Source: an uncultured Pseudomonadota bacterium (GTDB lineage Bacteria > Myxococcota_A > UBA9042 > CAIXZC01). Taken from it: 33,493 bases of DNA. A program made the position numbers and the translations under genes. This document shows, piece by piece, positions 11,301-30,288 of the stretch. The stretch is taken from assembly GCA_937884235.1 (NCBI GenBank), contig CALGBT010000574.1, positions 1 through 33,493 on the forward strand, given 5' to 3'. The notes below the pieces were generated by a model. That model was not told the DNA's origin. It worked only from the letters and a program-made list of their open reading frames with translations, and did no database searches. Position 1 is the stretch's first letter; the number at the start of each line of letters is the position of its first letter.

Positions 11301-13463
11301 CTATCGGGGCTGAAACTCAATAAGCTCGAGCTGATATAGCACAAGCAAAGTGTGATAGAGGCTCGCCTTCAGCTCGTCGGTACTACACTCTCTCAGGACT
11401 TTCCCGAAGCTTCCGGCCCGCTGAACCTGGGCGAAGAGCCGCTGCTCCTTGGAATTCAGGGGCAATGACTGGATGGAAACATACTCGTTCCGCTTCTCTT
11501 TGACCGTGGACCCTTCGTGCTGCTTGAAGAGTTTCTCCAAGTCTGCAGCGGTGGAGAACTTTCGCACCCCTTCGAGCACGTAGCGGAAGACATTGGCATC
11601 CGAGGGAGCCATGTCAATGGGACAGGGTACCCCTTCGTAGAACTCGTACCGCCCTTGCGTCCATGAGAAGACCTGGAGGAACTTCTCACGGAACTGCTGA
11701 TCGAGGAGCCAGTAGAGCTCATGTGGTTTGACAAATCCCATGGAAACAAGAGCATCACCGAGACGGCCGCCAAATTCGCCGGCCCGGGAGAGAGCCTCCT
11801 CCATCTGCTCCTCGGTCACCACCTGCCGGTGGAGGAGGAAGGAGCCGAGTAGTTCCTGCTTCAGGTTGGACGCAATGTGGCGCGGTTTGCCATTGCGGAA
11901 ATAGAACTCCTTCTGGGCGGAACTCATGGTGAAGCGGAGCTTCCCAGAGAGAGAGCGGCTGGACACCTGATAGAATACGCGGACCATTCCGGTACGGGAG
12001 ATGGTACCGGAATATATGGGGGTAACGCCCTTACTCTTGAGGGCCTCATTGGGCGAGAATTTGCGAACGCCGGTAATCTCCCGGACTCGCTGCCAGTCAC
12101 CGCCATCCACGGAGACGAACTCCTCCTCGGAGACGGCTCCGGTCTGCAGCAGATTGACCAGATTGTCAAAGTCAACTGGTCCGAAAACGTAACCGGAGGT
12201 ATTGCGCAGCTTGAACTCATGCCCCTTTAGAGACTCGGACACAGGGGAGTGCTCTTCACCAAACTTGGGAGAGGCGTATTCGCCAAAATCATCTGAACCC
12301 GCCGAGCCACTTGTGAGCGGCGTGACGGTCTCGGCTTGAGCCGTCTCCTCCTGAGGGGGATGAGGTTTGGGGGCTACTGCGGCGCGCCCCTGCCCAACCA
12401 TCTCTTCCATGCGACGAGCTTCTTCCACAGCAGACTTTGGCACCCCTGGGGAGGTTGATGGACGACGTGCAATATCATTGGTGAGTTCAGTGTCAACCAA
12501 CTCTTCGGTGGTCTCTTTGATCAGGGCGGAATTCTGCGCCTCTTCGCCAAAGACACTCTTCATGTAGTCTTCGACCTGCGCGTTATTGACCCGGACCTTC
12601 AGTTCGTAGAGGTACTCCACCAGATCCTCGTGAAACTCCATGGCGGTGCCATATCGTTGTTCTCGATCTGCGGCCAGGGCTTTTCGAAGAATGGTCCTAA
12701 GCTCTTCGCCAATGAAGGGATACTTTTCAAATTTCCGCTCGATACTGGCATCGCGAATATTGATCAGCGTCTCAAGGTCGGAACGGCCGAGGAAGAGCCT
12801 TTTGAGGGTCAGTGATTCAAAGAGCACAATACCCAGGGAGAAGATATCCGAGCGGTGGTCGATCTCCTCGCCCTTGACCTGTTCTGGGGACATGTACCCC
12901 AGTTTCCCCCGCAACACGTGCTTGGAGCCCTTGGTATCCTGAGTCCTGGCCTTGGCCACGCCAAAGTCCATGATCTTGACCGAGCCCCCCCAGGAGACGA
13001 TGATATTTGAAGGGGAGACGTCGCGGTGGATGATGTTGAGAGTATTGCCGTAGATGTCCCGTGCCCGGTGCGCATAGTCCAAGCCCTTGCAGACTTCGGC
13101 GGCAAAGAAGCAGGACATGGTCTGATTGGGCTCGGCCTTGTCCTCAGCCAGCCGCGCCAGGATCTTGAGGAGGTCCTTCCCGTCCACCAACTCCATGGCG
13201 ATGTAGTACTGGTTGTCAATGTGGTCAAGTTCAAAGATCTGGACAACATTGGGATGCTGGAGCACTGAGGTCAGTTTGGCCTCGTCCACGAGCATCTTGA
13301 TGAAAGAGACATTACGGGCATATCCGGGCAGAATCTTCTTAACGACAACTATCTTCTCAAACCCTTCGATGCCGGTAAGGCGGGCCTTGTAGACTTCGGC
13401 CATACCTCCGGCGCCGATCTTCTGAAGTAGTTCGTACTTGCCGAGTACTTGAAGGGGCTTCAT
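11301..13463 (-). CDS. Ser/Thr protein kinase with GYF_2-like and DUF4388 (PATAN)-like C-terminal domains
   Basis: YELLQKIGAGGMAEVYKAR, VVVKK, HRDVSPSNIIV, DFGVAK, MSPEQ; GYF_2-like GYVFGPVDFDNLVNLLQTGAVSEEEFVSVDGGDWQRV; DUF4388-like tail (SGKLRFTMSSAQKEFYFRNGKPRHIASN...). Confidence 0.93.
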   Translation of the reverse strand: MKPLQVLGKYELLQKIGAGGMAEVYKARLTGIEGFEKIVVVKKILPGYARNVSFIKMLVDEAKLTSVLQHPNVVQIFELDHIDNQYYIAMELVDGKDLLKILARLAEDKAEPNQTMSCFFAAEVCKGLDYAHRARDIYGNTLNIIHRDVSPSNIIVSWGGSVKIMDFGVAKARTQDTKGSKHVLRGKLGYMSPEQVKGEEIDHRSDIFSLGIVLFESLTLKRLFLGRSDLETLINIRDASIERKFEKYPFIGEELRTILRKALAADREQRYGTAMEFHEDLVEYLYELKVRVNNAQVEDYMKSVFGEEAQNSALIKETTEELVDTELTNDIARRPSTSPGVPKSAVEEARRMEEMVGQGRAAVAPKPHPPQEETAQAETVTPLTSGSAGSDDFGEYASPKFGEEHSPVSESLKGHEFKLRNTSGYVFGPVDFDNLVNLLQTGAVSEEEFVSVDGGDWQRVREITGVRKFSPNEALKSKGVTPIYSGTISRTGMVRVFYQVSSRSLSGKLRFTMSSAQKEFYFRNGKPRHIASNLKQELLGSFLLHRQVVTEEQMEEALSRAGEFGGRLGDALVSMGFVKPHELYWLLDQQFREKFLQVFSWTQGRYEFYEGVPCPIDMAPSDANVFRYVLEGVRKFSTAADLEKLFKQHEGSTVKEKRNEYVSIQSLPLNSKEQRLFAQVQRAGSFGKVLRECSTDELKASLYHTLLVLYQLELIEFQPR

Positions 13464-13687
13464 TCCAGCTCGCTCTCCGGCAGACTACGCATCAACATCA
13501 AGGCACGTTCACAAATTCTGGTCTGGCCCGCGGACCGCTGCTCCAATTCGCGGGATCGGCTGACACAAATTAACGAAGTTTCACCGTGTCTGGCACAGGC
13601 CTTATCTGCCAGCGTCTGGCACGCGTCAGTACACCCTACCGCCCCCGATGTTAGCAGAAGTAACGTGGCGACAACAAGCTTGATCAT
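13460..13687 (-). CDS. Small Cys-rich lipoprotein
   Basis: MIKLVVATLLLLTSGAVGCTDACQTLADKACARHGETSLICV...; lipobox SGAVGC; 4-nt ATGA overlaps with both neighbouring genes (13460-13463 and 13684-13687). Confidence 0.75.
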   Translation of the reverse strand: MIKLVVATLLLLTSGAVGCTDACQTLADKACARHGETSLICVSRSRELEQRSAGQTRICERALMLMRSLPESELE

Positions 13688-14472
13688 TCGCTCTCCTCGA
13701 TTCTCGCCACAACAACAGTCACGTTATCAAGGCCACCGCCGTCCAGAGCCATATCCACCAAACGCCGAGCGATGGCCTCAGGTTCCTCCTCACCCGCAAA
13801 CGCTGCCGCGATATCAGCCTCCTCCACCAGGTCAGACAAACCATCGGAACAGAGCATAATCAGGTCGCCATCTCGGGCAGACTTCATGGCAGTATCAACC
13901 TCAACCTTCTCTTGCAGCCCCAAAGCTCGGACGATTACGTTCTTCAAGGGAAAGGAGGCCGCGTCTTCCGGCCGCAGGAAGTTCATCCGGAGATACTCAT
14001 TGAGGAGCGAATGATCTTCGGTGAGTTGCTGCAACTGACCCCGGCGGAAGCGATAGATCCTCGAATCACCGACATGACCCACGAAGAGGCTGTGCTCAGA
14101 GACCAGGGAGGCAACGATGGTGGTACCCATATTCTCATACTGGGGGTTGCGCTCCGCGGCCACGTAAATGGCCACATTGGCTTCCTCCACGGCCCGTTGC
14201 AGTTTGTATTGCTCAAAGGGGTGATTGCGAGGTACCAGAGAAGCCCGTTTGGCCCGCGTGAATTGCTGCCGGAGCAACCGATTAAGCTCCTCGCTCTCGT
14301 AGAACTGACGCATCGTTTTGACCGCAATAGCAGAGGCCAATTCGCCATACTCATGGCCAGCCATCCCATCGGCAATGACGACGAGTCCACGGTGGCCCAG
14401 CAGCAGATGAGCATCTTCGTTGTTGGTACGAACATAGCCCGGGTGTGTCTCTGCGTGGGTAAGCAGTCTCAT
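13684..14472 (-). CDS. PP2C-family Ser/Thr protein phosphatase
   Basis: RTNNEDAHLL, VVIADGMAGHEYGELAS, VGHVGDSRIYRFR, LCSDGLSDLVEE, GGLDNVTVVV. Confidence 0.95.
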   Translation of the reverse strand: MRLLTHAETHPGYVRTNNEDAHLLLGHRGLVVIADGMAGHEYGELASAIAVKTMRQFYESEELNRLLRQQFTRAKRASLVPRNHPFEQYKLQRAVEEANVAIYVAAERNPQYENMGTTIVASLVSEHSLFVGHVGDSRIYRFRRGQLQQLTEDHSLLNEYLRMNFLRPEDAASFPLKNVIVRALGLQEKVEVDTAMKSARDGDLIMLCSDGLSDLVEEADIAAAFAGEEEPEAIARRLVDMALDGGGLDNVTVVVARIEESE

Positions 14473-15519: not shown

Positions 15520-16878
15520 CTAGAGAACGTACCTGGAAACGTCTTCGTCTTCGATGATATCTTTGAGCCTGGACTCAACTTCGGCGCGGTTGAAGACAAT
15601 GCGGCTGCCGGCAAGATCAGGCGCTTCGTATGAGAGCTCTTCCAGGAGCTTCTCCAGGATCGTGTGGAGCCGCCTGGCACCAATGTTCTCCATTCTCTCG
15701 TTGGCCATTACAGCCAGCTCGGCGAGGGCATCGATGGCATCATCGGCAAACTCCAATACCACTTGCTCAGTAAATAGCAGGGCGACGTACTGCTTGATGA
15801 GGGAGTTCTCCGGCTCCACCAGAATACGACGGAAATCTTCTGACTCCAGGGCCTTGAGTTCGACGCGAATGGGGAATCTCCCCTGCATCTCCGGAATAAG
15901 ATCGGAGGGCTTGGAGACGTGGAAAGCGCCGGCGGCCACGAAGAGGATGTGGTCGGTACGCACCGGTCCATACTTGGTAGCCACAGTCGTGCCTTCGATA
16001 ATGGGCAGCAGATCTCGCTGCACGCCTTCCCGGGAGATGTCGGGACCATGTCCGCCTTCACGGCCAGCGATCTTGTCCAGTTCGTCGATGAAGACGATAC
16101 CCGTCTGCTCAACCCGTTCACGGGCCTCATCCACAACCTTGTCCTGATCCACCAGGTTGCCCGCCTCTTCCTCCTCGATGAGCCGCAGGGCCTCCTTAAC
16201 TGTCACGTTCTTGTCCTTCTTCTTGCCCGGGAAGAGATTGCCGAACATGTTCTGCATGTTGAGCCCCATTTCCTCCATTCCGGCATTGGAGAAAACTGAC
16301 ATCATGGGCATTGAATTCTTCTGATCTACGGAGATCTCCAGTTTGCGATCATCGAGGAGCCCTTTACGGAGTTGTTCACGCAGCTTCTCCCGGCGCCGAT
16401 TGGCCGTCTCCACCGCGCTGCCATCTTCCACTTCCTCGAAGCTGGGTCGCACGTAGAGTTTGTCCAGGACACGGTTCTCTGCGTTGCGGCGGGCCACGGT
16501 ACGCACGCGCTCTTCTTCCTCCTTCTGCACCATTCCCACGCCAGTCTCCATGAGATCTCGAATCATGGAATCGACGTCCCGGCCGACATAGCCAACCTCA
16601 GTGAACTTGCTGGCTTCCAGCTTGATGAAGGGAAGATTGGCCAGCTTGGCCAGCCGGCGTGCGATCTCGGTTTTGCCGACTCCGGTGGGCCCGATCATGA
16701 TGATATTCTTGGGCATGATCTCTTCCTGTAGATCGCCCGGGACCATCTTGCGACGCCACCGATTGCGCAGCGCGATGGCAACTGCCTTCTTGGCATCTCC
16801 CTGACCGACAATAAAGCGATCAAGGTAGCCGACTATCTCTTTGGGCGTGAGGCTCGCCTCCATGAATGTGGTATCCAT
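15520..16878 (-). CDS. hslU: HslU ATPase subunit of HslVU protease
   Basis: [61 protein letters not shown]-terminal [19 protein letters not shown]...; diagnostic of HslU. Confidence 0.97.
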
Positions 16879-16881
16879 CGT

Positions 16882-17430
16882 CTACTCCGTTTGCGCAAGG
16901 GTCTCAACGGTGAACTCACCGTTGGTATAGATACAAAGCTGAGCGGCTACTTCCATGGCTGCCCGGGCCAGAGCCTCGGTATCCATCTCGGTGTGTCGGG
17001 CCAGCGCCCGGGCCGCCGCCACTGCGTAGGGACCGCCGGAACCAATGGCCGCGATGCCTTCTTCGGGCTCCACGATGTCGCCGGTTCCGCTGATGAGCAG
17101 CAGATTCTCCTTGTCCGCCACCAGGAGCATCGCCTGGAGCTGTCGCAGAGCCTTGTCGGTGCGCCAATCCTTGGCCAGTTCCACCGCCGCCCGCATGAGG
17201 TTCCCACTGTAGTCCTTCAGCTTCTTCTCGAACCGCTCGAAGAGGGCAAAGGCATCTGCTGTCGAGCCGGCAAAACCTGTCAGTACCTGCCCATCATAGA
17301 TGCGGCGCACCTTGCGGGCGGACCCCTTCAGGACGGTGTCGCCCAGGGTCACCTGGCCATCCCCCACGAGGACCACCTGCCCTTTGCGACGGACACCTAG
17401 AACGGTTGTGCTTCTCACTCTACTCTTCAC
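16882..17430 (-). CDS. hslV: HslV peptidase subunit
   Basis: [37 protein letters not shown]...[18 protein letters not shown]-terminal Thr after a short propeptide. Confidence 0.97.
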
Positions 17431-18326
17431 GATCGGTCCTCCTCTCGGGGATGGGCCTTGCGATAGGCCGCCATGATGGTCTTCATGTCCAGATGCGTAT
17501 ACTTCTGCGTGGTTGACAAGTTGGCGTGGCCCAACAACTCCTGAATGGTGCGCACGTCAGCTCCCTCTTCGAGCATGTGGGTGGCAAATGAGTGGCGGAG
17601 CATGTGGGGGTGGAGAGGCTTCCCTACTCGCCCGGCACTGCGATCCAGGAGCCGGCGCACCGACCGGTCCGACAGCCGCCGTCCCCGCCGACCATAGAAG
17701 AGCGCAAGGGGATCGTGCCCCTGCTGCCACCGTTGACGCTCCGCCAGGTAGGCTTGCAACGCGGCAACCGCCTCATCCCCCAGGAAAGCAAGGCGCTCCT
17801 TGCCCCCTTTACCCCGCCTGATGCGAACCTCCCGACTGCGTAAGTCCACGTCACGTTCGTCCAGGCCGGCCAACTCCGAGACTCGCATGCCGGTGCCGTA
17901 GAGCAGCTCTAGCACAGCCCGGTCTCGCAGGGTATCCGGGTCGTCCAAATCCCTGCATCCACCCACCAGATTCAGCGCCTCCCCCTGGGTCAACACTGCC
18001 GGCAATCGCTGGGGAAGCCTGACGCCGGGCAAGAGATCAGCAGGGTTCTCCTGAATCAGACCCTCCCGCTGCAAGAAGCGGTAGAACGTGGTGATGCTGG
18101 CCCGTCGCCGAGAGACCGTTGCGGCCGCATATCGCACCACCTGCAGCCCCAGGAATTCGCGCAACTGCTTGCGGCGGGCACGGGCCAGAGAGAGACGTTT
18201 GTCCGCCAGAAAATCGGCGAGCATGCCAAGGTCAGCCCGGTAGTTGCGGAGGGTATGCGGCGAGAATCCGCGCTCGACGCGCAGATAGGTTTCAAATCGC
18301 GCCATCAACTCGGTGCGTTCATCCAT
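17427..18326 (-). CDS. xerC: Tyrosine recombinase XerC-like
   Basis: [12 protein letters not shown] (Arg I), [14 protein letters not shown] (HxxR), [14 protein letters not shown] (H...Y). 4-nt overlap with hslV. Confidence 0.92.
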
Positions 18327-18498
18327 ACCGCCTCCACTCGTCTAGGATAGTACAGATTGCCCGCCACGCAATGCACTTCGTCGTCGGCACTATTGCTCGC
18401 AAGGGATCTCTCTGGTACTTTCACAAGGGTCTACACTTGTACCGATGGACCTGTGTAAGTGGCGAAGGCGCCGCCCACAAATCGGCTTTGAGGTGAAT

Positions 18499-21400
18499 AT
18501 GAAAACCTGGCGACAACACGTACGCTGGCTGGCCACGCTGATGCTCCCCTGCATGATGCTGGCCTGTTCCAATGGCGAAGGCAAAGCGGAAGAGGAAGAT
18601 TCTACTTTTGTCTTCCCGGTGTTCGATACCTATAAGCCCCCTGCGGATATCACCAGCGAAGATCTGCGCCTTGACGATCTTGATGTTATCTATAGCGAAA
18701 CCCCGTTTGTAGCCGATGGGGAAATCATAGAACCAGACCTCCCCGACATTGAAACGGCAGATGGGGACGATGCCATCCAGCCCGTCGATTTGCCCGATGT
18801 TCCTGATATCGAGCCAGACCTGGACGTCACAGAGGACGAAATCGAAGGCCCCATAGACTACCCGTTCCAGTCCTTCGGGCCACTCACTTTGAGCATGAAA
18901 GGGCCGATGCTGAATGGCCAGTACATTCAGTTGCGAATGGCGGAAGTAAGCTACTGGAAATACCCGGCTGAGCAGTGGGAGGCACTTCTGGACCGGGTCA
19001 AACAGGCGGGTTTCAACGGTATCTACCTGAGCGTCTGCTGGGCCCATCACGAGCGAGAGCAGGGTAACTTCGACCTGTCCACCGGCAACCGTAATCTGAG
19101 CAGCTTCATGGAACTGGTCAAGCTCAGCGGGCTCTACGTCTACGTCGGAGCTGGCCCCTGGATCGACCGTGAAGCCGGCGGCTGTCTCCCCACCTGGCTG
19201 GCGGCTGGGGCGAAGGCCAACGTCTCTCCCGTGCCCGATGGTCAGTTCGCCCTGCGTCTGGCCGACGCCGATTTCCAGCAAGCCTTCATGGCCTGGTTCG
19301 ATCAGGTCAACGCCGTCCTCGCAGGCTATCAGGTCACCTCCTTTCCCCAGGGACCGATTCTCTTCTACCAGTTGGAATCAAGCTACGATCTGTACACCTT
19401 CTTCAAGGATGCCGACGGGCGCATCCAGCAGGAGATGCTGGGCATCCAGCCGCTCCCGGTAAATATCGGGCTCTACATGGCTCAGCTGCGAGATACGGTT
19501 CAAGCCGACGGTATCACCGTGCCACTGGTGACCTCCATTACCGGGGACTTTGAGAATGGCGGCCGCCGCGTATTGGGAACCGGTGATACCCCGGGCATCT
19601 ACCCCGTGGCGGACCTCTACACCGAAGATGAATATGAGAGCATGGAGTTGAAGCTCTGGAATTTGCGCAAGGAGATGCGCAAGGCCGAACTGCACGGGCA
19701 GGTCTACATGGTGGTTCCTGGTATTGCGGTAGGAGTGGTCCCCTCTCCGGCGCATATGGCCCGCCTCCTCATGGCCGGTGCTGACGTGGTGGTGGTGCGC
19801 GACTTCGCTGCCGCTTCGCTGCCGCTTGCACACCAGGCAGTGAGCCTCGACCGGGAAGGTATCGACGTCTTCTCCCAACTAAGCGAAGCCAGAGTGTCGT
19901 TGGGTTCAAGCCGTCGCGACCTCGCATCGCCGGTGACTCTTTCGGGATTGCCCCGGCCCTCCTTCTGGCGATTCCGCCAGCTCAACTACTACATGTCCCT
20001 CTTTGGCAGCGGCTTTCTGGGCAAGGACCTGCCCTACCGCACGGGCCCCAACAAGACCGGCTCGCCCCACTCTGTGGTCCTTTCTGAACCAGCCATTGGC
20101 GCCATTGAGGACAAGTACAGCCCACCTGTTCCCGGCCCGGCTTCGGGGATTATTGAAGTCATGCTCGACCACTTCAAGGCCTGGTACATGGAGGCCATAG
20201 GTGCCGAGCCCACGGGACGAGCGACCTACTACTTCGACACAGCAACCGGATCGTTGCTAGTTCACCTTGTCAATCTCGATCAGGTGGATGGCGATGCCAA
20301 TGCCCACGAAAGGGAAGATCTGATCACGAAACTGACGGTGAACGGACAGAAGGTCCCCCGTCACTCCAACATCGTTGTGCCTGCCACCAGCGAAGAGACG
20401 GGGGGCGAAAGTGCTCTAGGATGGGGCAGCAAGCTCATTATCCTCAACTACCCGCTGGGTATCGGCTATCCGCTGCTTGAGTACGCCTCCTCCAATCTCG
20501 CCGCGGCACGGCAGTTCAACAGCCGGATGCTGATTGTGGCCCACGGAAAGCCGATGGTGAAGTCCGGGGGGGTCTACTTCACTGAACCGGGGGAGATCTC
20601 GCTGGCCAATATCGGCGGCATTCCTCAGATCATTCTTAATGCGCTGCCTGAAGGTGGCATCCATACCGACCCCGGGGGTAGAATCGCCGTCCAGTTCCAG
20701 CACAACGACACCGGCTATCTGGTACTGGGACTTCCCGGCGGGAAGGAGCTGGTGCTGGTGGCCACTACCACCGCAGTCGCCCGCAACCTCCAGTTTGTCT
20801 ACCAGAAGAGCGGCTATGAAATGGCCATTATGGGCTTCGACCGTATCGACGAGGTCATCGAAGATGAGACCGGCCTGACCATTCAAGGTCGCGTCTCGCC
20901 ACCGGCCGGGGAGTTCATCATTCTCACCGACAAGAAGCCCTTCAAGGTGAACGCCAACGGGGCGGCAGCTGACTGCGACTGGGAACCGCAGGTTGGTGCG
21001 CTCCATTGCAATATGCCCCTTCTCTCCATGCCCGATGCTGCAATTCCCCTGGGGGACTTCTATTCTCGCCAGGAAAACTACAATGGCGCCACGTCGGACT
21101 TGGGGGCCAACGAGTATCCCGATCAATTCGCCCAGGTCGAGTTCGCACCGGTATCGCTGGATAACGATTTGCTCCAGGCTGATGCTGGCATTGCCTGGTA
21201 TGCCGCCGACGTTGAACTTGGCGCGGTATCGCCAAACCTGGAGGGTTTTCTCAATATCGCCGGGGCCGCGGACATCGTTTCGGTTTTCATCAACGGTACC
21301 TACCTGGGCTCGTCATCACCCCTGGGCAACGTGCCCATGGCAGCCACCGACGTAGCCATCGGCCTGGCCGCGGCCGGGTTCCGGATTCCGGCCGGGGTCC

Positions 21401-22305
21401 TAGTGCAAGGCAGCAACAACGTCGCCATCCGGGTGGTGGCCCTGGGGCGCGCCAACACCTCGCTGCCGCTCTTCTACGCTTCCGCCCCCCTCCTCCCACC
21501 TGAACTCGACCCCCTCGCTTCGCTCATGCCGCACGTCGCAGTAGAGGGTCTTAACGCCAACCACTACAAGGGATTGTGGGGCAACGTCAAGCTCACAGTG
21601 GGAGCACTATCGGCCCCGGTATCCGGTCCCTGGACCATCAGCAAAGGAGACGCTGACCGGCTGGCCCGTCCCTATGGCATGCTTAAGGGCTGGCACGCCA
21701 TGAATTCCAACCCAAGCACCCCGGGGAGCCAGGGTTTTGCCTACGCTACCGCGATTTCTCAGGACACGCCCATGGCCCTCCAGGATGGTCAGATGACCTG
21801 GGTTACGTCGACCTTCTCTTCAGGCGCCATGGGTGAACTGGAGGGGGGCTTGGAGTTGGTCGTGGAAGGTCGCAGTGCCATGGCTCTGGTATTCCTCAAC
21901 GGCACCTTCGTCGGCACCTGGTTCTCCGATTTTGAGGCCCTGAGCCAGGCGCTCTACTCGAAGCTGGTGCAAGGTGCCGGGACACGCCAGCTCCTGGCCA
22001 ATCTGGATGCTCCACACTTCGGCTCCAGCAATGCGGACATCATCTCCCTGCCGGACCACCTGGTGAGCAAGAGTGGGGGGCAGGACAACCGCATCACTGC
22101 ACTCTTCATCGATCTTTCACCAGCACTGGCCGCAGATCTAGCCCTGCCGACCATAGGCACCATCTCCGGCCAGGGCAAGATTGAGCGCTTCGAGTTACGG
22201 TGGAACGGCGACAACTGGTTCCCGGATGCCTCTGCCGAGGAGTCCATGGTCATCCAGACCGGCATTGAAGTGGAACTGCAGGCCGCACCTGCACCTGAGC
22301 AGTAG
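18499..22305 (+). CDS. Lipoprotein with GH35 beta-galactosidase-like fold and C-terminal jelly-roll domains; probably catalytically inactive
   Basis: Lipobox CMMLAC and Asp/Pro linker; GH35-like LNGQYIQLRMAEVSYWKYPAEQWEALLDRVKQAGFNGIYLSVCWAHHEREQGNFDL...VYVGAGPWIDREAGGCLPTWL...PILFYQLESSY. ORF extends to 18445; MKTWRQHVRW at 18499 is the likely start. Confidence 0.82.
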   Translation: MKTWRQHVRWLATLMLPCMMLACSNGEGKAEEEDSTFVFPVFDTYKPPADITSEDLRLDDLDVIYSETPFVADGEIIEPDLPDIETADGDDAIQPVDLPDVPDIEPDLDVTEDEIEGPIDYPFQSFGPLTLSMKGPMLNGQYIQLRMAEVSYWKYPAEQWEALLDRVKQAGFNGIYLSVCWAHHEREQGNFDLSTGNRNLSSFMELVKLSGLYVYVGAGPWIDREAGGCLPTWLAAGAKANVSPVPDGQFALRLADADFQQAFMAWFDQVNAVLAGYQVTSFPQGPILFYQLESSYDLYTFFKDADGRIQQEMLGIQPLPVNIGLYMAQLRDTVQADGITVPLVTSITGDFENGGRRVLGTGDTPGIYPVADLYTEDEYESMELKLWNLRKEMRKAELHGQVYMVVPGIAVGVVPSPAHMARLLMAGADVVVVRDFAAASLPLAHQAVSLDREGIDVFSQLSEARVSLGSSRRDLASPVTLSGLPRPSFWRFRQLNYYMSLFGSGFLGKDLPYRTGPNKTGSPHSVVLSEPAIGAIEDKYSPPVPGPASGIIEVMLDHFKAWYMEAIGAEPTGRATYYFDTATGSLLVHLVNLDQVDGDANAHEREDLITKLTVNGQKVPRHSNIVVPATSEETGGESALGWGSKLIILNYPLGIGYPLLEYASSNLAAARQFNSRMLIVAHGKPMVKSGGVYFTEPGEISLANIGGIPQIILNALPEGGIHTDPGGRIAVQFQHNDTGYLVLGLPGGKELVLVATTTAVARNLQFVYQKSGYEMAIMGFDRIDEVIEDETGLTIQGRVSPPAGEFIILTDKKPFKVNANGAAADCDWEPQVGALHCNMPLLSMPDAAIPLGDFYSRQENYNGATSDLGANEYPDQFAQVEFAPVSLDNDLLQADAGIAWYAADVELGAVSPNLEGFLNIAGAADIVSVFINGTYLGSSSPLGNVPMAATDVAIGLAAAGFRIPAGVLVQGSNNVAIRVVALGRANTSLPLFYASAPLLPPELDPLASLMPHVAVEGLNANHYKGLWGNVKLTVGALSAPVSGPWTISKGDADRLARPYGMLKGWHAMNSNPSTPGSQGFAYATAISQDTPMALQDGQMTWVTSTFSSGAMGELEGGLELVVEGRSAMALVFLNGTFVGTWFSDFEALSQALYSKLVQGAGTRQLLANLDAPHFGSSNADIISLPDHLVSKSGGQDNRITALFIDLSPALAADLALPTIGTISGQGKIERFELRWNGDNWFPDASAEESMVIQTGIEVELQAAPAPEQ

Positions 22306-22433
22306 GGTCATCACCTCCCCTCTTGCGGCACCGGCAATGCAGCCGAAAATCTTGACTTCACCCTCTAACTGATGTTTCATCGAAGCCGGGTGTAACGCAA
22401 GGTCGACTAAGTATCCCGTGCCAGGAGGACCGA

Positions 22434-24368
22434 ATGTTCGTAGTCTCTGTAAGGGAGCGTGGTAAGGAAGAACACAAATTCACCTTCCGAAAACCTGGAG
22501 TAGTTATTGGACGGCTACGCTCCAATGACATCATCTTGCCCAAACGCAACATATCCAAACGTCATGCTCGACTGGAGTTGACCGCAGACGGCAAAATCTT
22601 GCTGGTCGACAATGGCAGCACCAACGGCAGCTATGTGAACGGCAAGAAGGTCAGTGAGACCATTGAGGTGGGGCCCGAAGACAAGGTCTTCATGGGTGAC
22701 TACATTCTTCAGGCACAGATCCTTGAGGATACCTCAGCTATCGATGGCCTGGGCAAGGAAGACATCGGCCAGATAGTGGGCGGTGACAGCCAGGGACAGG
22801 ACCGACCGACAGTGGCGGACATCGACTCCAGCATCCTCGATGAGGAGCTGCGGCGAATGGAGGCCGAGCAGAGCGAACTTGGGCCCGCGACCGTAGTCGT
22901 CGATCCCCTCGACGTTCCCACCGAGCCGCCTCCCGGCCTGCTTGAGGAGACCGGGCTCGACATGGATCTGGTTGCGGAAGACATGGCAGAGACCATGCGC
23001 TTCAAGGAAGCCAGTGAATCCACCGGCGGCGAAGTTCAGTTTGAGGTTGAGTTAGAGGAAGCAGTTCCGGAAGCCGAGCCGGTACCCGAGCCTGCCGTCG
23101 AAGAGCAGCCTGAGGCCGCCTTGGACGACCTCGAAGAACTCATTGATATTGCACTGGAAGATGACTTCGAAGCCACCGTTGAGCCGGACGAACAGCTGGT
23201 GGAGGAAGTGGACGACAAGGTTGAGGAACTCGTTGCGGTTCCGACTCCGACTCCGGCAACCACAGCCGCGCCAGTGGCCGCCACGGCCTTTGCGCCTTCA
23301 GTGAGCCGCCTTGAAACCAAGTTGGCCAGCGCCCTGGAAAGCCACTATGACGACGTTGCGGCAGCCTTCGACCAATGGCTCGAAGAAGGGGGCAAGCCCG
23401 AGGGGGCCCGGGGGCAGATAGGATCATTGCTCATCGATGCACTCGGCGACGCCGCCGGCGATCAACTGGATGAACTCGTCGACCAGGTGGTGGCTGAGCT
23501 AAACTACATCGGTGTGGTTGCCTCACTCCTCGAAGAACCCCGGGTCGGCGAGGTCTTCGTGGCTCCGTCCGGTCGCATCCAGGCCTTCGACTGGGCTGGA
23601 AATCGCCTCGATATCAACGCCTCCCTCTCCTGTCCGGCAGCCTGCGGCCGGGTGGCCGAGCGCATCCTCGATGCCGCAGGCAACACAGGCGATAGCTTCG
23701 CTGAAGCGCGCTTGCAGGATGGCACACTGGCGCGGGTCTTCATGGTTCCCTACGCCGCCGAGATCCCAGCATTGCGTTTTGTCCGTCCCTTCCAAACCTC
23801 CATGTCATTGGCCAAACTTCAGGATACCGGGGTAGTTACTGCGGCCCAGGCAGCAGAACTAAAGAAGGCCGTCACGGCCAGGCGTAACATCCTCGTCACT
23901 GGCCCCAAGACCTCAACCATGACCCTGTTGATCCACTCCTTGGTCGCGGCCATCGACCCGTCGGAGCGCCTGTTGGTTTCGGGCGATCGCTTCGCCGGTG
24001 GACCGGGACTGGAGAACGCCACCATCTTTGCGGCGCGCGCAGTCCATTCACATGATTTTTCGGAGGCCTGCTCGCAGATGGGATTTGACCGGGTCGTGCT
24101 TGAAAATGGCGCCGGAGATACGGTTGTTGCGACTATGGAACTGGGCGCATTGCTGCAGATTCCATACATCGCCTCGGCACGCCTCAACGACCCGACCAAT
24201 CCCACGGCCCTGCTGGGAATGAGCAATGAAGAAACCCGGCTCGCCCTGCTTGATTCTCTGGACCGGGCCGGAGTCATCCTCGTCGCCACTGGCGATGCTG
24301 GAGTTGATTCCATCTCCCTGTTCACCCTTCAGGCTGGTGAGCCGAAACTGGTAGACATCTCTGCCTGA
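22434..24368 (+). CDS. FHA-domain protein with acidic linker and C-terminal CpaF/T2SS-ATPase-like domain (degenerate nucleotide-binding motifs)
   Basis: FHA: VVIGRLRSNDIILPKRNISKRHARLEL...DNGSTNGSYVNGKKV. CpaF-like: VGEVFVAPSGRIQAFD...LRFVRPFQTSMSLAKLQDTGVVTAAQAAELKKAVTARRNILVTGPKTSTMTLLIHSL...QMGFDRVVLEN. RBS AGGAGGA upstream. Confidence 0.85.
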   Translation: MFVVSVRERGKEEHKFTFRKPGVVIGRLRSNDIILPKRNISKRHARLELTADGKILLVDNGSTNGSYVNGKKVSETIEVGPEDKVFMGDYILQAQILEDTSAIDGLGKEDIGQIVGGDSQGQDRPTVADIDSSILDEELRRMEAEQSELGPATVVVDPLDVPTEPPPGLLEETGLDMDLVAEDMAETMRFKEASESTGGEVQFEVELEEAVPEAEPVPEPAVEEQPEAALDDLEELIDIALEDDFEATVEPDEQLVEEVDDKVEELVAVPTPTPATTAAPVAATAFAPSVSRLETKLASALESHYDDVAAAFDQWLEEGGKPEGARGQIGSLLIDALGDAAGDQLDELVDQVVAELNYIGVVASLLEEPRVGEVFVAPSGRIQAFDWAGNRLDINASLSCPAACGRVAERILDAAGNTGDSFAEARLQDGTLARVFMVPYAAEIPALRFVRPFQTSMSLAKLQDTGVVTAAQAAELKKAVTARRNILVTGPKTSTMTLLIHSLVAAIDPSERLLVSGDRFAGGPGLENATIFAARAVHSHDFSEACSQMGFDRVVLENGAGDTVVATMELGALLQIPYIASARLNDPTNPTALLGMSNEETRLALLDSLDRAGVILVATGDAGVDSISLFTLQAGEPKLVDISA

Positions 24369-24385
24369 AACAATGAACCGGGTAG

Positions 24386-25117
24386 ATGAAAGGGACACCG
24401 CACCGATTCGAACTCACCATCACCACCGCTGACGGTCACACCCACGTCTTCCCTCTACCCGAAGGTGAGCACGTCGTCGGCCGCTCCCTGGCCTGCGAAA
24501 TCTACGTCTCAGAGGCTTCACTCTCCCGCCAGCACCTCCGTATCAGTGTCGCAGGCAGCAGCCTCTCGGTTACCGACCTGGAGAGCCTCAACGGCACCCA
24601 ACTCAGGGACCAACCCCTCACCGGCAGCGCTCCCGTCAAGCCCGGGGAGCCACTGGTACTCGGCGAACTTGAGGCCACCATCAGAGACGCCAGCGCTGAA
24701 GTTGGAGCCGATCAGGTCTGGCTCGAAGTGCTCAACACTTCTTTGCGGGGCAAAGTCTATGAGGTGACCAGTTCAAGGATCATTATCGGCCGCTCCGGGT
24801 CAGTCGATTTCCCCATCGACCATCCCACCATCTCCCGCGCTCACGCCGTGCTATCTTACTCTCCGGACGACCGAGCCTGGCTCCTTGAGGACCGGAAGAG
24901 CGCCAATGGCACTTTCGTCAACAATGTCATGGTCTCGCAGTCGCTGGTCACCGGCGACGATACCCTCAGAGTAGGGGACGTGGAGCTACGCTTCACTCGC
25001 CAACCCCCGGCAGGCAACCGTCAACGCACCGGCCTGCTCATTGTCCTGATGCTGCTACTGGCAGGCTCCATCGGGGTCCTCCTCGCCGACCTCTTTGGCC
25101 TGCTGGTCTCGCCCTGA
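24386..25117 (+). CDS. Tandem double-FHA protein with C-terminal TM anchor
   Basis: FHA1 VVGRSLACEIYVSEASLSRQHLRISV...DLESLNGTQL; FHA2 IIIGRSGSVDFPIDHPTISRAHAVLSY...DRKSANGTFVNNVMV; TM TGLLIVLMLLLAGSIGVLLADLFGLLV. Confidence 0.92.
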   Translation: MKGTPHRFELTITTADGHTHVFPLPEGEHVVGRSLACEIYVSEASLSRQHLRISVAGSSLSVTDLESLNGTQLRDQPLTGSAPVKPGEPLVLGELEATIRDASAEVGADQVWLEVLNTSLRGKVYEVTSSRIIIGRSGSVDFPIDHPTISRAHAVLSYSPDDRAWLLEDRKSANGTFVNNVMVSQSLVTGDDTLRVGDVELRFTRQPPAGNRQRTGLLIVLMLLLAGSIGVLLADLFGLLVSP

Positions 25118-25199
25118 CCGGATGTCCGGCCTCCGGACAATGGGTTTGCGCCCAGGTGCAGGGCCATGTAAGATGCTGTCGTTCATGGAGGGTGTGAGG

Positions 25200-27026
25200 A
25201 TGAAGCGGTCCGCGCTATTGGCATTGGTTCTTCTAACTCTGGGCCTGATTGGCTGCTCTAACGAGAGCGCCAGTACGCTGCCCGAAGTCACCGACGACTG
25301 CCCGCTAAAGGGGACACGCACCTGCGGCCTCGATGACAACGGCAACTTCGCGGTTCTTCAGTGCGGCGCCTTCCTGATATGGGAGCTTGAAATGGCCTGC
25401 CCGGGCAGCTGCATCTTTGATAGCGTTGTCGGGGTAGTCTGCGAGGGAGGGGAACTGCCAGACGTCATTGGGGATGACCTCCCGGATGGGGACGGCTGGG
25501 ATGTTCGGATCACCGACACCCCCAGCGACCTTCCCCAGGAGACAGAAACTCCCACCGATGTGACTCCTGATCTGCTTGACCAGGATTACATCTTCCCGGA
25601 CCTGATGCCCGACCTGACACCACCATGGATCGAAACCACCAGTCCGGCTGACAACGAGATGGGAGTTGCCGTGCCATTCGTGGTCACCGTCCAGTTTACC
25701 GAACCGATGCACGCCATCACCCTAGAGGCAAAGACCGTGCGCATGCATGATGCCGGTGGCAAAGAAGTAGGCCTGGAGTTCGAGTGGCTCGACGAGGAGA
25801 CATCGCTGCTGCAGTTGACCCCCAGCGGGGCCATCTTTCATTCGTCGCCCTACTCCATCACCATTGACCCCATCGTCAAAGACAAGGCCGGCAATTCAAT
25901 GGGCAATACTTTCTCCTTCACGTTTTACACCAAGGCCGTACCCAGCCTCAATGGATACGCCGAATTAGCCGGCAAGTATGCGCCTCTGATTTACCAGGAA
26001 ACCAACACCACTTCGCCGCAATTCGACTATCCCACTCGCTTCGACCTGGATAGCGATTGGGTTGCAGAAGACAACGTCGAGTTCATCAAAGGCGCAGCTA
26101 CCACAATTGAACCGACAGTCCACTACTCCGTAACCGAGACCAAATCGCACTTCTTCATCACCTATGCCTTCTTCTACCCGTACCGCTACACAGAGGATGA
26201 ATCCAGCCGCTTTGGCAACGACGTTTCTGGTGCCCTGGTGGTAGTACGCAAGGTCAACGAAGCACCCGTCGCGGTAGAGACCTACTTCAAGCGCGAGACT
26301 GACGAACGATCGTTCTCGTTTATCACCGAAGAATCGCAACTACTGCCGCCGGGGAAGACTTTTTCTGACCTCAAGTTCGATGGCATGCTGCCAATTGCCA
26401 CCCTCTTCCCGGGAAACCGCTATGTGGCCTACCTCTCGGGGCGCAAACATGAGTCCTGTCTCTGGCTCGACGAGAACAATGGCTTCCTTGATGGCTGCAT
26501 CCTCAACACCGGCATCAAGAACGGGATGCAGAAGATCGAGATGAACTACAAGAACGGCGTCGTCGACATCCTCAAGAAGGAGGGGAGCAAGTTCCCCCAG
26601 GCCAAGGCAGACGTGGGCTTCGCACTGGTGCATCTCCTGGACAGTTGGTGGGCACGGCGGGCCGATATCGGTAGTGGGAAGGTCTGGGCTGAGGACTACA
26701 AGTACCAGCCCGACACTCACTTTGCCAACCGACCAACACTTTCAACCAAGATTCCCACCTCTTTCATCGACCCCATTGGCAACGACTACGGGCGGCCGCC
26801 GTGGGCCTGGAAACACAAGCCAGGCAACGGCTCGAGCTACTTCGACATGCCCCGTGGGGTCTGGTTCCTCGACCCTGCCGTGCACTTCAAGCTGCGCCAC
26901 GACCAGAGCAACGGGTGGTCCGACTATGACACCCAGGCGGGTACCGGATGGTCCCTGGAGTACTGCTTCAACCCTTACTTCAACCTCGATTTCCGCGGCA
27001 TCTGGCCGGAGTGCACTGCCAAGTAG
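25200..27026 (+). CDS. Lipoprotein with SbsA-type Ig-like domain and C-terminal domain distantly resembling Vps62-like proteins
   Basis: Lipobox LGLIGC; Asp/Pro linker; Big_5-like PPWIETTSPADNEMGVAVPFVVTVQFTEPM...YSITIDPIVKDKAGNSMGNTFSFTFYT; C-terminal KYAPLIYQE...FFITYAFFYPYRY...NDVSGALVVV...YLSGRKHESC. Start corrected from 25095 to ATG at 25200. Confidence 0.8.
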   Translation: MKRSALLALVLLTLGLIGCSNESASTLPEVTDDCPLKGTRTCGLDDNGNFAVLQCGAFLIWELEMACPGSCIFDSVVGVVCEGGELPDVIGDDLPDGDGWDVRITDTPSDLPQETETPTDVTPDLLDQDYIFPDLMPDLTPPWIETTSPADNEMGVAVPFVVTVQFTEPMHAITLEAKTVRMHDAGGKEVGLEFEWLDEETSLLQLTPSGAIFHSSPYSITIDPIVKDKAGNSMGNTFSFTFYTKAVPSLNGYAELAGKYAPLIYQETNTTSPQFDYPTRFDLDSDWVAEDNVEFIKGAATTIEPTVHYSVTETKSHFFITYAFFYPYRYTEDESSRFGNDVSGALVVVRKVNEAPVAVETYFKRETDERSFSFITEESQLLPPGKTFSDLKFDGMLPIATLFPGNRYVAYLSGRKHESCLWLDENNGFLDGCILNTGIKNGMQKIEMNYKNGVVDILKKEGSKFPQAKADVGFALVHLLDSWWARRADIGSGKVWAEDYKYQPDTHFANRPTLSTKIPTSFIDPIGNDYGRPPWAWKHKPGNGSSYFDMPRGVWFLDPAVHFKLRHDQSNGWSDYDTQAGTGWSLEYCFNPYFNLDFRGIWPECTAK

Positions 27027-27044
27027 TCGGCAGAGGAGTACACC

Positions 27045-27425
27045 TTGCGTTGGACATGGCTGATTTTCTGGGGAGTAGCCGGTGTCACGATGCTCGTATC
27101 GTCCTTCGTGGTCAACTGGTTCGACATTGATTTCACTTACTTCAAGCTGAATCTGGGGTGGTTTGCCCTGGTCTATACCGGGCTGCTGGCGGTACGCAAC
27201 GTGCTAGTGAAACAGCAAATAGAGATGACCCCCCGGGAACTCCATGATTGGGGCGAAACGCTGGCCCGAGTCACTCCCCAAATCCTTGAGCTGGCAGAGG
27301 AGGGCTCCCGCCCAAAAGTAATCGCGGCCAAACTCAAAGCAGCAGATGGGATTCCCGAGTTGGTGAGCTTGAAGTATATGGTGGCCCTGTCTAAGCAACT
27401 CAAGAAAGAAGCAGCTGCCAAATAG
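27045..27425 (+). CDS. Small two-TM membrane protein of unknown function (TTG start)
   Basis: MRWTWLIFWGVAGVTMLVSSFVVNWFDIDFTYFKLNLGWFALVYTGLLAVRNVLVKQQIEMTP...; AGGAG 7-8 nt upstream of TTG; 18-nt gap from the previous gene. Confidence 0.7.
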   Translation: MRWTWLIFWGVAGVTMLVSSFVVNWFDIDFTYFKLNLGWFALVYTGLLAVRNVLVKQQIEMTPRELHDWGETLARVTPQILELAEEGSRPKVIAAKLKAADGIPELVSLKYMVALSKQLKKEAAAK

Positions 27426-27439
27426 CCGGATGGACCTGC

Positions 27440-29575
27440 CTACTGGCCGTAACCGTCACCTTCGATGGATTCCATCATGTCCATGGCTTTCTGCTCCATG
27501 GCGGGAACCTTCTGTAGTCTTTTCAGGGCCTTGCGGGCCTTTTGGCGATCACCAGCGGCAATGTAGATCTGGGCCTCTCGCATGTCCATAGCCTCTGCGG
27601 AGCGGGTACCCACACACGGACCGCTGCGGAACATCCGGAGGAGCTTGAGGGCCTTTTCGTTTTCACCGGCCTTCTCCAGGGCCAGGAGTTCATCCCAGTA
27701 CTTGTCGCAGGCGTATCCCTGGTCGGACTGCTTCTCAGCGTTCTTGCTCTCTTCCTTCTTCTTCTCAACCAATTCAGCTTGCGCCTGCAGCACCTCTTCC
27801 CCCGACTCTTCTTCGTTCTCTTCGGTCGCGAAGAACTGCTTGTCGACCACCTCGCCTGGGGCCTCTTGGATAGCATCCGGGGCCTCGGCCTTCTCATCGT
27901 CCGCACCGCTATCTTCATCGGCAGCCGGCTCTTCAGGGGCCTTTGACAGAGCCACCACAGGTTCGAATATGGCGGCCTGCGGCGCAGCGCCCGACGACGT
28001 TTGCGTGGGGGAGTTCACCACCGTCGCATCGTCACCGTAATCGAGTTTGAGCTGGCCCTTCTTCATCACCGTCGTGTATTCGCTGCCGGCCTCCGGTTGT
28101 ACGCTCACTGGCTTCACCAGCGAACCATCTGGAATGGCACTGGGAACTACGCCCCAGGCTTCGTCCACTGAGGTGCTGGCGGCGGGTTTGACAGGGGCCG
28201 ACTCAGTTGGCTTCTGCGGTCCCTGGTCGGCAACTTCGGCCGATTTGAAATCCCCTGCGCCATCACGTCCACTGCTGGTTACGGCAGGGGCCTTGGCCCC
28301 GGCCGACTTGGATTCTCGGCCCGTGGTGAGAGATTCCTCGGCATTGTCCTTGAGCACCGCGCGGTTGTAAGTATTGCCCACCCACTCCCGCTTCTCCGTC
28401 CGTTCTTTCTCGCCTCCCTTCTGCAGCTGCGAAACGTCATTGGGGACAAATGCCTCTTCTGGTTTGGCCAGTTCCAAAGCCTTCGTTTTCTCGTAGACTT
28501 CGGTGCTCTCCTTGGCGAACCCGGCCCCGGAATTCTGCGTCTTTTTTCCCGCTTGTGACTCCACGGCAACCTTCTTGCTCCGTTCCTTGCGAGGGATATT
28601 GACCTGCCGGTGAGTGCTGTCATCCCTCACCAGCGTGCCATCTGCAGTGAGGCGGGCAGCTGGATCCTGATTCGCAGTGTCCTCGACGATACCACCCTGG
28701 TCACTCTGCCGGAGATTGGCATCCCCGGAAGCCTCCCCGCGCGGATGGTCTTTGGCAGCATCCTCTTCACTCTTGCTCCGCCGCCGATCCAGAGAATCCA
28801 CCAGTGTTCGAACTGCTACCTTGCCGTCAGCCTTGCGCAGCCCCTCATTGGCCAATCCCTCGGACGCGACCGATGCCGGCTCCTCTGCATCCTGGGCAAC
28901 CTGCTCCTGCAAAGGAGCCTCCTCTGGAGGGTCCACAGCAACTACGTTCTCGGCAGTTGCCTTCTCGGCAACTGCGACGGTCGCCATCTGCTGCTCAGCT
29001 TCTCGTTTCTCTTCTGCCTCGGGGGCCTTCGCCACTTTGCTTTCAACTGCTTCTTCACCCGTCCCAGCCTCATGGTCTGCGACCTGGGCCCTTGCGGCGG
29101 CACCGGCGGCGGGAGCTTTGTCCTTGGCTACGGCACGAGTCGGCCGCATCCGCTCCTTGACCTCCTGGGCGGAACCAGGCTCTGCCGGACGACGAGCGGA
29201 CTGTCCCATGTAGACGCCCACTGCCACCACCAGCAACGCGGCCATGGCCATTCCGACCTGCGGCTGCAGCAACCAGCCAAAGAGATCGGCCAGCGTCAGA
29301 CGCTTCTCGGGCACCGGTTCCGTCCGCACCACACGATTCCGGCCAGCGGCGTAGGCCATGATGTCGGCCACCACGTCCGCCGGTGGCTCGGGCACCTTAA
29401 CGGCATCGATACTACGCTGCAGCGCGGTCAGATCAGCGACCTGAGCCTGCAGGTCGGGCCGCTGCTCCAGCTCCTTGCGAAACGCAGCTTCGTCCGCAGC
29501 AGAGAGCTCGCCATAGACGAACTCAACCACTCGCTCGTCAAGGGGGCCATCCCGCCGTCTTTCGTCGCCGCTCAT
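27440..29575 (-). CDS. Large anti-sigma-factor-like protein (cytoplasmic helical domain, single TM, long low-complexity region, C-terminal TPR-like domain)
   Basis: N-terminal DERVVEFVYGELSAADEAAFRKELEQRPDLQAQVADLTAL; TM PQVGMAMAALLVVAVGVYMGQ; charged low-complexity stretch; C-terminal YACDKYWDELLALEKAGENEKALKLLRMFRSG...REAQIYIAAGDRQKARKALKRLQ. 4-nt overlap with the upstream sigma gene. Confidence 0.82.
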   Translation of the reverse strand: MSGDERRRDGPLDERVVEFVYGELSAADEAAFRKELEQRPDLQAQVADLTALQRSIDAVKVPEPPADVVADIMAYAAGRNRVVRTEPVPEKRLTLADLFGWLLQPQVGMAMAALLVVAVGVYMGQSARRPAEPGSAQEVKERMRPTRAVAKDKAPAAGAAARAQVADHEAGTGEEAVESKVAKAPEAEEKREAEQQMATVAVAEKATAENVVAVDPPEEAPLQEQVAQDAEEPASVASEGLANEGLRKADGKVAVRTLVDSLDRRRSKSEEDAAKDHPRGEASGDANLRQSDQGGIVEDTANQDPAARLTADGTLVRDDSTHRQVNIPRKERSKKVAVESQAGKKTQNSGAGFAKESTEVYEKTKALELAKPEEAFVPNDVSQLQKGGEKERTEKREWVGNTYNRAVLKDNAEESLTTGRESKSAGAKAPAVTSSGRDGAGDFKSAEVADQGPQKPTESAPVKPAASTSVDEAWGVVPSAIPDGSLVKPVSVQPEAGSEYTTVMKKGQLKLDYGDDATVVNSPTQTSSGAAPQAAIFEPVVALSKAPEEPAADEDSGADDEKAEAPDAIQEAPGEVVDKQFFATEENEEESGEEVLQAQAELVEKKKEESKNAEKQSDQGYACDKYWDELLALEKAGENEKALKLLRMFRSGPCVGTRSAEAMDMREAQIYIAAGDRQKARKALKRLQKVPAMEQKAMDMMESIEGDGYGQ

Positions 29576-30288
29576 TGTAGAAAGTCCTCCAGTTCCCGAC
29601 GCAAGGCCTCAAGGGCATAGCGCATTCTGGTTTTCGCCGTATTTACCGGACACTCCATGATGTCTGCAATCTCCGCAAACTGAAGTCCCTGGAAATGCCG
29701 CATCTCAAAGACCTCACGCTGGTCAGGATTAAGACCGGACAACGCTTCTTTGAGTCGACTTTCGAGTTGCCCCTTGCGCACCATCTGCTCGGCGTCAACC
29801 GCGTGTCGGTCTGCCACGACGTCGCCAAAAGAGCGTTTATCCTCGCCGGAGCGCAGCGGGGCATCCAGCGAGCGCATCATCAGCTTCTTCTTCTTGAAGG
29901 TATCGATCATGGTGTTGCGGACGATGGTGAAGAGCCAGGTGGAGAAGCGCCTGGTGGGGTCATACGAGTCCGCGGCCCTGACAACCTTGTACCAGCAGTC
30001 TTGGAACACCTCGCTGGCCCGATCCGCATTGTAGTAGTGACGGTAGATGTAACCGTACATCTTGCCCTGATAACGTCGCATCAGGACATTGAATGCGCGC
30101 TCATCACCGGCTACATAGCGTATCATCAGTTCCTCGTCTGATGGTTCGTCCGAGGCCTCCGGGTCGGGGGCCCCTAGACCTGCTTCCGCCCAAAGGACGG
30201 CGCCTAGTACGCAGAGCAGTTGGAGAAGTTCTGGCAAGAACCATTTCCAGGCCGGGCTGACTCTCGCAGAATATACTCTCATCACCAT
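29572..30288 (-). CDS. ECF-type RNA polymerase sigma factor
   Basis: DEELMIRYVAGDERAFNVLMRRYQGKMYGYIYRHYYNADRASEVFQDCWYKV...RRFSTWLFTIVRNTMID (sigma2); LNPDQREVFEMRHFQGLQFAEIADIMECPVNTAKTRMRYALEALRREL (sigma4). The true start may be 30126 (see findings). Confidence 0.93.
   Translation of the reverse strand: MVMRVYSARVSPAWKWFLPELLQLLCVLGAVLWAEAGLGAPDPEASDEPSDEELMIRYVAGDERAFNVLMRRYQGKMYGYIYRHYYNADRASEVFQDCWYKVVRAADSYDPTRRFSTWLFTIVRNTMIDTFKKKKLMMRSLDAPLRSGEDKRSFGDVVADRHAVDAEQMVRKGQLESRLKEALSGLNPDQREVFEMRHFQGLQFAEIADIMECPVNTAKTRMRYALEALRRELEDFLQ

Follow-up and report, generated by a model that had tools for sequence, protein, structure and literature searches.

The stretch of DNA analysed here (the window) covers nucleotides (nt) 1 to 33,493 of contig CALGBT010000574.1, from an uncultured bacterium of the GTDB lineage Myxococcota_A whose genome (G000) is 87% complete. 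Its plus strand carries five consecutive genes, separated in order by gaps of 128, 17, 82 and 18 nt, which a sequence-only reading had located at these positions and proposed as a single envelope signalling module. The positions, shared strand and gaps all proved correct. The conserved unit, however, is formed by genes 2 and 3, which encode an FHA-pseudoCpaF protein and a membrane protein with two FHA domains, while genes 1, 4 and 5 are local neighbours.

18499-22305, plus strand: GH35-like lipoprotein gene (gene 1), starting at an in-frame ATG inside the open reading frame (ORF) 18445-22305
22434-24368, plus strand: FHA-pseudoCpaF gene (gene 2), 644 amino acids (aa)
24386-25117, plus strand: double-FHA/transmembrane (TM) gene (gene 3)
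25200-27026, plus strand: Big_5 lipoprotein gene (gene 4), starting at an ATG inside the ORF 25095-27026
27045-27425, plus strand: gene for a small protein with two TM helices (2-TM; gene 5)

The FHA-pseudoCpaF gene and its double-FHA partner

Genes 2 and 3 make up a pair that has been conserved throughout the phylum Myxococcota. The FHA-CpaF protein found matches in 53 of 53 related genomes, and among the matches listed many span both the FHA and the CpaF parts, the rest covering FHA alone. An FHA-CpaF gene followed by a same-strand double-FHA gene could be called, besides the window, in 16 of 20 fetched regions; the other four were cut by contig ends or contained miscalled genes. In GC-rich loci a GC3 criterion guided the calling of genes. 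Wherever both genes were called, in the window and in 16/16 other loci from across the class, they are adjacent and co-oriented, with a spacing mostly below 100 nt. In families f3 and f5 (L040, L041, L045), genes judged by eye to be thiG-like (thiazole synthase) and thiE-like precede the pair.

The gene 2 product is divided into three parts:

aa 1-97: FHA domain (profile E=2e-15)
about aa 99-291: disordered linker
about aa 295-644: three-helix bundle and CpaF N-terminal domain (NTD)/ATPase fold

The protein gives a sub-threshold match to T2SSE (E=0.004) and matches the TadA family TIGR03819 with E=2e-16. Its AlphaFold2 (AF2) model is confident for the FHA domain and the CpaF-like core, with the disordered linker between them, and the best PDB match is TadA/CpaF 8rjf (E=1.5e-19). 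Class III CpaF proteins are defined as FHA-IDR-3HB-NTD-CAD (PMC12019362), and by model and profile match the gene 2 product has this succession of FHA domain, disordered linker, three-helix bundle, NTD and ATPase domain. An RPT motif in the linker (22803-22811, aa 124-126 of P0002) is common to the FHA-CpaF proteins of the window's family, reading KKT in the family genome G002, and could be a candidate phosphothreonine site.

The catalytic residues of CpaF are K287/T288 in Walker A, E312 in the Asp-box, the arginine finger R347 and E357 in Walker B (PMC12019362). At these positions the window protein has M, T, G, G and N, so that four of the five are lost, in keeping with the degenerate CpaF that had been read from the sequence. 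None of the 22 class-level members retains all five, and of 76 sequences overall only 10 do, one of which is a true CpaF. In four close relatives with a dead site (genus g8, family f5), dN/dS was 0.007-0.019 for the FHA domain, 0.19-0.25 for the linker and 0.036-0.073 for the pseudo-ATPase domain. The dead ATPase domain is thus under strong purifying selection and must be kept for a purpose other than canonical catalysis, a conclusion measured in f5 and carried over to the window by extrapolation.

In the FHA domain, residues G26, R27, S41, K42, H44, S62, T63, N64 and G65 are invariant in 19/19 class-level homologues, which were retrieved without residue patterns. They are likewise invariant in the wider, phylum-wide set, although this result is partly ascertained and biased because loci were scanned with FHA motifs as seeds. 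The partner encoded by gene 3 (P0003) combines two FHA domains, whose arginines are R33 and R136, with a single TM helix at about aa 216-234. All homologues checked show this succession, and both FHA motifs (of the GR, SxxH, NG type) are kept in 16/16. Judged by these residues, the FHA domain of gene 2 and both FHA domains of the partner are predicted phosphothreonine readers. In most families the partner continues past the TM helix into a C-terminal region, which carries TPR-like repeats in Kil-type loci; in the window's family it stops at the helix. The gene 3 product gives weak profile matches to GltG and YscD, and it shares with GltG/SctD-type membrane proteins (FHA, TM helix, periplasmic domain) the layout of FHA followed by a single TM helix. 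In contrast to those proteins, it has two canonical FHA domains and is tied to an FHA-pseudoCpaF gene, not to gliding or type III secretion genes.

Relation of the pair to Tad and Kil motors

The gene 2 product resembles KilF (MXAN_3107), the ATPase of the Tad-like Kil predation system of Myxococcus xanthus, in that an FHA domain is joined by a disordered linker to a CpaF core. KilF carries its FHA domain at the N-terminus (Seef et al., PMC8460266). Besides several FHA proteins, Kil cluster 1 encodes a secretin and a prepilin peptidase, and kilF is followed downstream by kilD, which is probably co-transcribed with it (PMC8460266). Among the named Myxococcota loci, intact FHA-CpaF genes (GGTGSGKT) come after a gene for an A24 peptidase and/or a secretin and before a double-FHA gene; these loci match Kil cluster 1 of Myxococcus, a Myxococcaceae locus (L102) from a metagenome-assembled genome (MAG) standing in for M. 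xanthus in the comparison. The window shares with them the double-FHA gene placed next after the FHA-CpaF gene. The partner can be equated with KilD (MXAN_3108) by position only, as the gene directly downstream of the FHA-CpaF gene on the same strand in the window and 16 loci. In the Kil-type loci L102, L084 and L128 the gene at the KilD position encodes two FHA domains, accompanied by TPR-like repeats in L102 and L128. KilD is described as a cytoplasmic multidomain protein (PMC8460266), whereas in the window the partner carries a TM helix but lacks C-terminal repeats. Between the secretin and FHA-CpaF genes of L102 lies a gene of the 23S_rRNA_IVP family (1849-2352).

Unlike KilF, the window protein belongs to a separate paralogous clade and has lost its catalytic residues. 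In a quick tree, a detached clade of 66 rows that includes the window (SH-aLRT 99) stands apart from the intact Kil-type sequences. The status of the Walker A Lys requires five changes on this tree, at least three of them forced by well-supported branches; because regain is unlikely, repeated loss is the natural reading. Three genomes, G058 (Lujinxingiaceae), G063 (Polyangiaceae) and G062, each contain an intact FHA-CpaF gene in a Tad-like locus, the neighbours of the intact copies being judged by size and start only, together with a detached form. As both forms coexist in single genomes, they are paralogues. A culturable strain, Polyangium sp. y55x31 (L115), also has the detached gene.

The surroundings of the pair also differ from those of a Kil locus. 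No secretin, prepilin peptidase, platform or CpaB gene was recognised in the window, and no Tad gene was recognised beside it in the loci examined, where neighbours were identified only in part. CpaB (TIGR03177) was detected in 10 of 53 relatives, above the cut-off in 6, and was not found in the other 43, the window's genome included. A search of 23 genomes with TIGR03819 gave a clear separate CpaF in G020 only; what else it matched were T2SSE-family ATPases of other kinds and the FHA-CpaF genes. Taken together, these searches suggest that the pair persists where a Tad system is undetectable, within the limits set by MAG completeness and a possibly diverged KilB. The pair is related to KilF by descent, yet on its lost catalytic residues and its locus context the window's pair was rejected as a Tad motor.

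A part in a pilus or secretion machine is a different matter. The CpaF-like protein might sit in a hetero-hexamer or act with a PilB/GspE partner, and in this way be a subunit that regulates a type IV pilus or type II secretion system. The CpaF fold is preserved and constrained, other T2SSE-family ATPases are present in the same genomes, and KilF-type relatives act in pilus assembly (PMC8460266, PMC12075869). We nevertheless consider this rather unlikely. The loci examined (with their partly identified neighbours) showed no recognisable pilus gene next to the pair, the catalytic residues, including the arginine finger, have been lost in diverse ways, and G058, G062 and G063 hold the paralogue alongside intact Tad motors. 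Repeated loss of catalytic residues, long tree branches and the mostly undetected CpaB in the class could also be read as the decay of a lost Kil/Tad system into a functionless remnant. This is highly improbable in view of the full-length open frames in the loci read, the intact frames in genus g8 and the dN/dS values far below 1 there on both the FHA and the dead ATPase domain, the invariance of the putative phosphothreonine-binding residues and the constancy of the partner gene.

Genes 1, 4 and 5 and the surroundings of the cluster

The sequence-only reading treated all five genes as one envelope signalling module. In such a module, transcribed as a single operon, the GH35-like and Ig-like lipoproteins would sense the outside and the FHA proteins would relay the signal inside. 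A neighbourhood search on homologues divided the cluster: genes 1, 4 and 5 are scattered, whereas genes 2 and 3 stay together.

The gene 1 product resembles GH35 beta-galactosidases in matching their profile (E=1e-26) at aa 155-318, which covers the barrel's N-terminal part, and in having a BetaGal_ABD2 domain. It differs from them at the acid/base Glu, which is gone in the window, where the canonical QVENEY reads QLESSY, and is absent from both homologues in the family (ESH and EDA at the site). The earlier description of this protein as an inactive GH35 thus appears sound. Full-length homologues were found only in the window's family, in G003 (51%) and G002 (36%). In G003, two contigs ending in one shared stretch of about 99 bp place the GH35 gene just upstream of the FHA-CpaF gene, while in G002 the homologue is on another contig with other neighbours. 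In the third family genome, G001, HslU lies directly upstream of the pair and no GH35 was found in the genome. The GH35-like gene is therefore outside the conserved unit, standing beside the pair only in the window and G003.

The gene 4 product has a Big_5 (Ig-like) domain by profile and a conserved C-terminal domain (about aa 240-609) modelled by AF2 with high confidence, for which no convincing match was found among PDB structures. An earlier suggestion that this lipoprotein is Vps62-like is unsupported, as a Pfam search of 18 homologues gave no such match and the PDB comparison none that convinced. Matches to the lipoprotein occur in 49 of 53 related genomes (a few of them to the Ig domain only), usually as one full-length copy per genome; its gene adjoins the pair only in the window's family and is located elsewhere in other families. 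For the gene 5 product, the profile search gave no family above its cut-off. The 2-TM gene has matches in 15/53 genomes, is patchy outside the window's family, and is a neighbour of the lipoprotein gene in the window as well as in G001 and G003. In these two genomes both genes come after the pair but are encoded on the other strand.

Content, order and strand of the five genes are thus not conserved among relatives, and a five-gene operon was rejected on the comparison of the window with G001, G002 and G003. The shared strand and short gaps in the window, as well as the adjacency of GH35 and FHA-CpaF genes across the overlapping contig ends of G003, would suit an envelope module of this kind. 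Promoter-like and terminator-like sites, no commoner in the region than in shuffled sequence, would suit it as well, although equal counts make the scan uninformative. With the GH35 gene at a different place in G002, undetected in G001 and without a full-length homologue outside the family, and with the lipoprotein and 2-TM genes inverted in G001 and G003 and away from the pair in other families, such a module is improbable. None of the three genes, for the GH35-like lipoprotein, the Big_5 lipoprotein and the 2-TM protein, is a necessary part.

About 4 kb from the cluster lie the kinase and phosphatase genes to which the FHA proteins had been tied:

11301-13463, minus strand: Ser/Thr kinase gene
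13684-14472, minus strand: PP2C gene

Both are present as reported, separated from the cluster by a radical SAM gene, HslU, HslV and a XerC-type recombinase. That tie is not conserved: a kinase homologue occurs near the pair in just one of the surveyed loci (L046).

Several other features of the region were recorded. The XerC-HslV-HslU genes (15520-18326) border the pair's region in G000 on the opposite strand, and in G001 (L034 596-3409) they lie directly upstream of the pair on the same strand. An ORF at 1367-3952 encodes an FGE-sulfatase-like domain and Dictyostelium CTDC repeats, with partial matches in L042, L052 and L174. At 27440-30288, convergent with the cluster, are a gene for an extracytoplasmic function (ECF)-type sigma factor and an overlapping gene of 711 aa. 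A viral_contigs scan for a viral origin gave no relative.

A possible role for the pair

The view that a dead ATPase fold beside phosphothreonine readers fits sensing or scaffolding better than metabolism was right, and genes 2 and 3, to which it applies, are conserved far beyond the window. It is rather probable that their two products form an assembly that reads phosphothreonine and descends from the FHA-CpaF (KilF-type) motors of Tad/Kil pili. The most likely role of this assembly would be that of a scaffold at the inner membrane, gated by phosphothreonine and independent of ATP. The double-FHA protein would sit in that membrane, hold both of its readers in the cytoplasm and anchor phosphothreonine reading there, and the FHA-pseudoCpaF protein would supply a CpaF-fold scaffold and one more reader. 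With its CpaF fold retained, the pseudo-ATPase may act as a scaffold that does not turn over ATP, perhaps in the form of an oligomeric ring. The assembly would be switched by Ser/Thr kinases that place phosphothreonine on partners or on the disordered linker and by PP2C phosphatases that remove it; the kinase/phosphatase pair that sets it need not be the neighbouring one.

To the full proposal, that a Myxococcota-wide paralogue of the Tad/Kil motor has repeatedly lost its ATPase residues and works with the dual-FHA membrane protein as an ATP-independent, phosphothreonine-gated scaffold without a pilus, we assign a probability of roughly 45%. Several points weigh against it. Phosphothreonine binding, oligomeric state and localisation are predicted only; the genomes are mostly incomplete MAGs, that of the window included; and the CpaB search may miss a diverged KilB. 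The window's partner is without the C-terminal domain that most relatives have, selection was measured in f5, whose site (Walker A K to R) has decayed less than that of the window, and the seeding with FHA motifs noted above affects the phylum-wide comparison.

We found no account of an FHA-CpaF pseudo-ATPase family in the open-access literature searched, a search outside which most subscription papers and preprints fall. Known CpaF-like motors are ATP-driven engines of pili and secretion. A family that has given up the ATPase site in several lineages of Myxococcota, with its fold and phosphothreonine readers still strongly constrained, would amount to a natural experiment on how a motor becomes a signalling scaffold and, if the proposed role is true, would represent a new class of pseudo-ATPase signalling platform. 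The pair gives concrete genes for knock-out and could help to explain the FHA richness of the Kil predation system.

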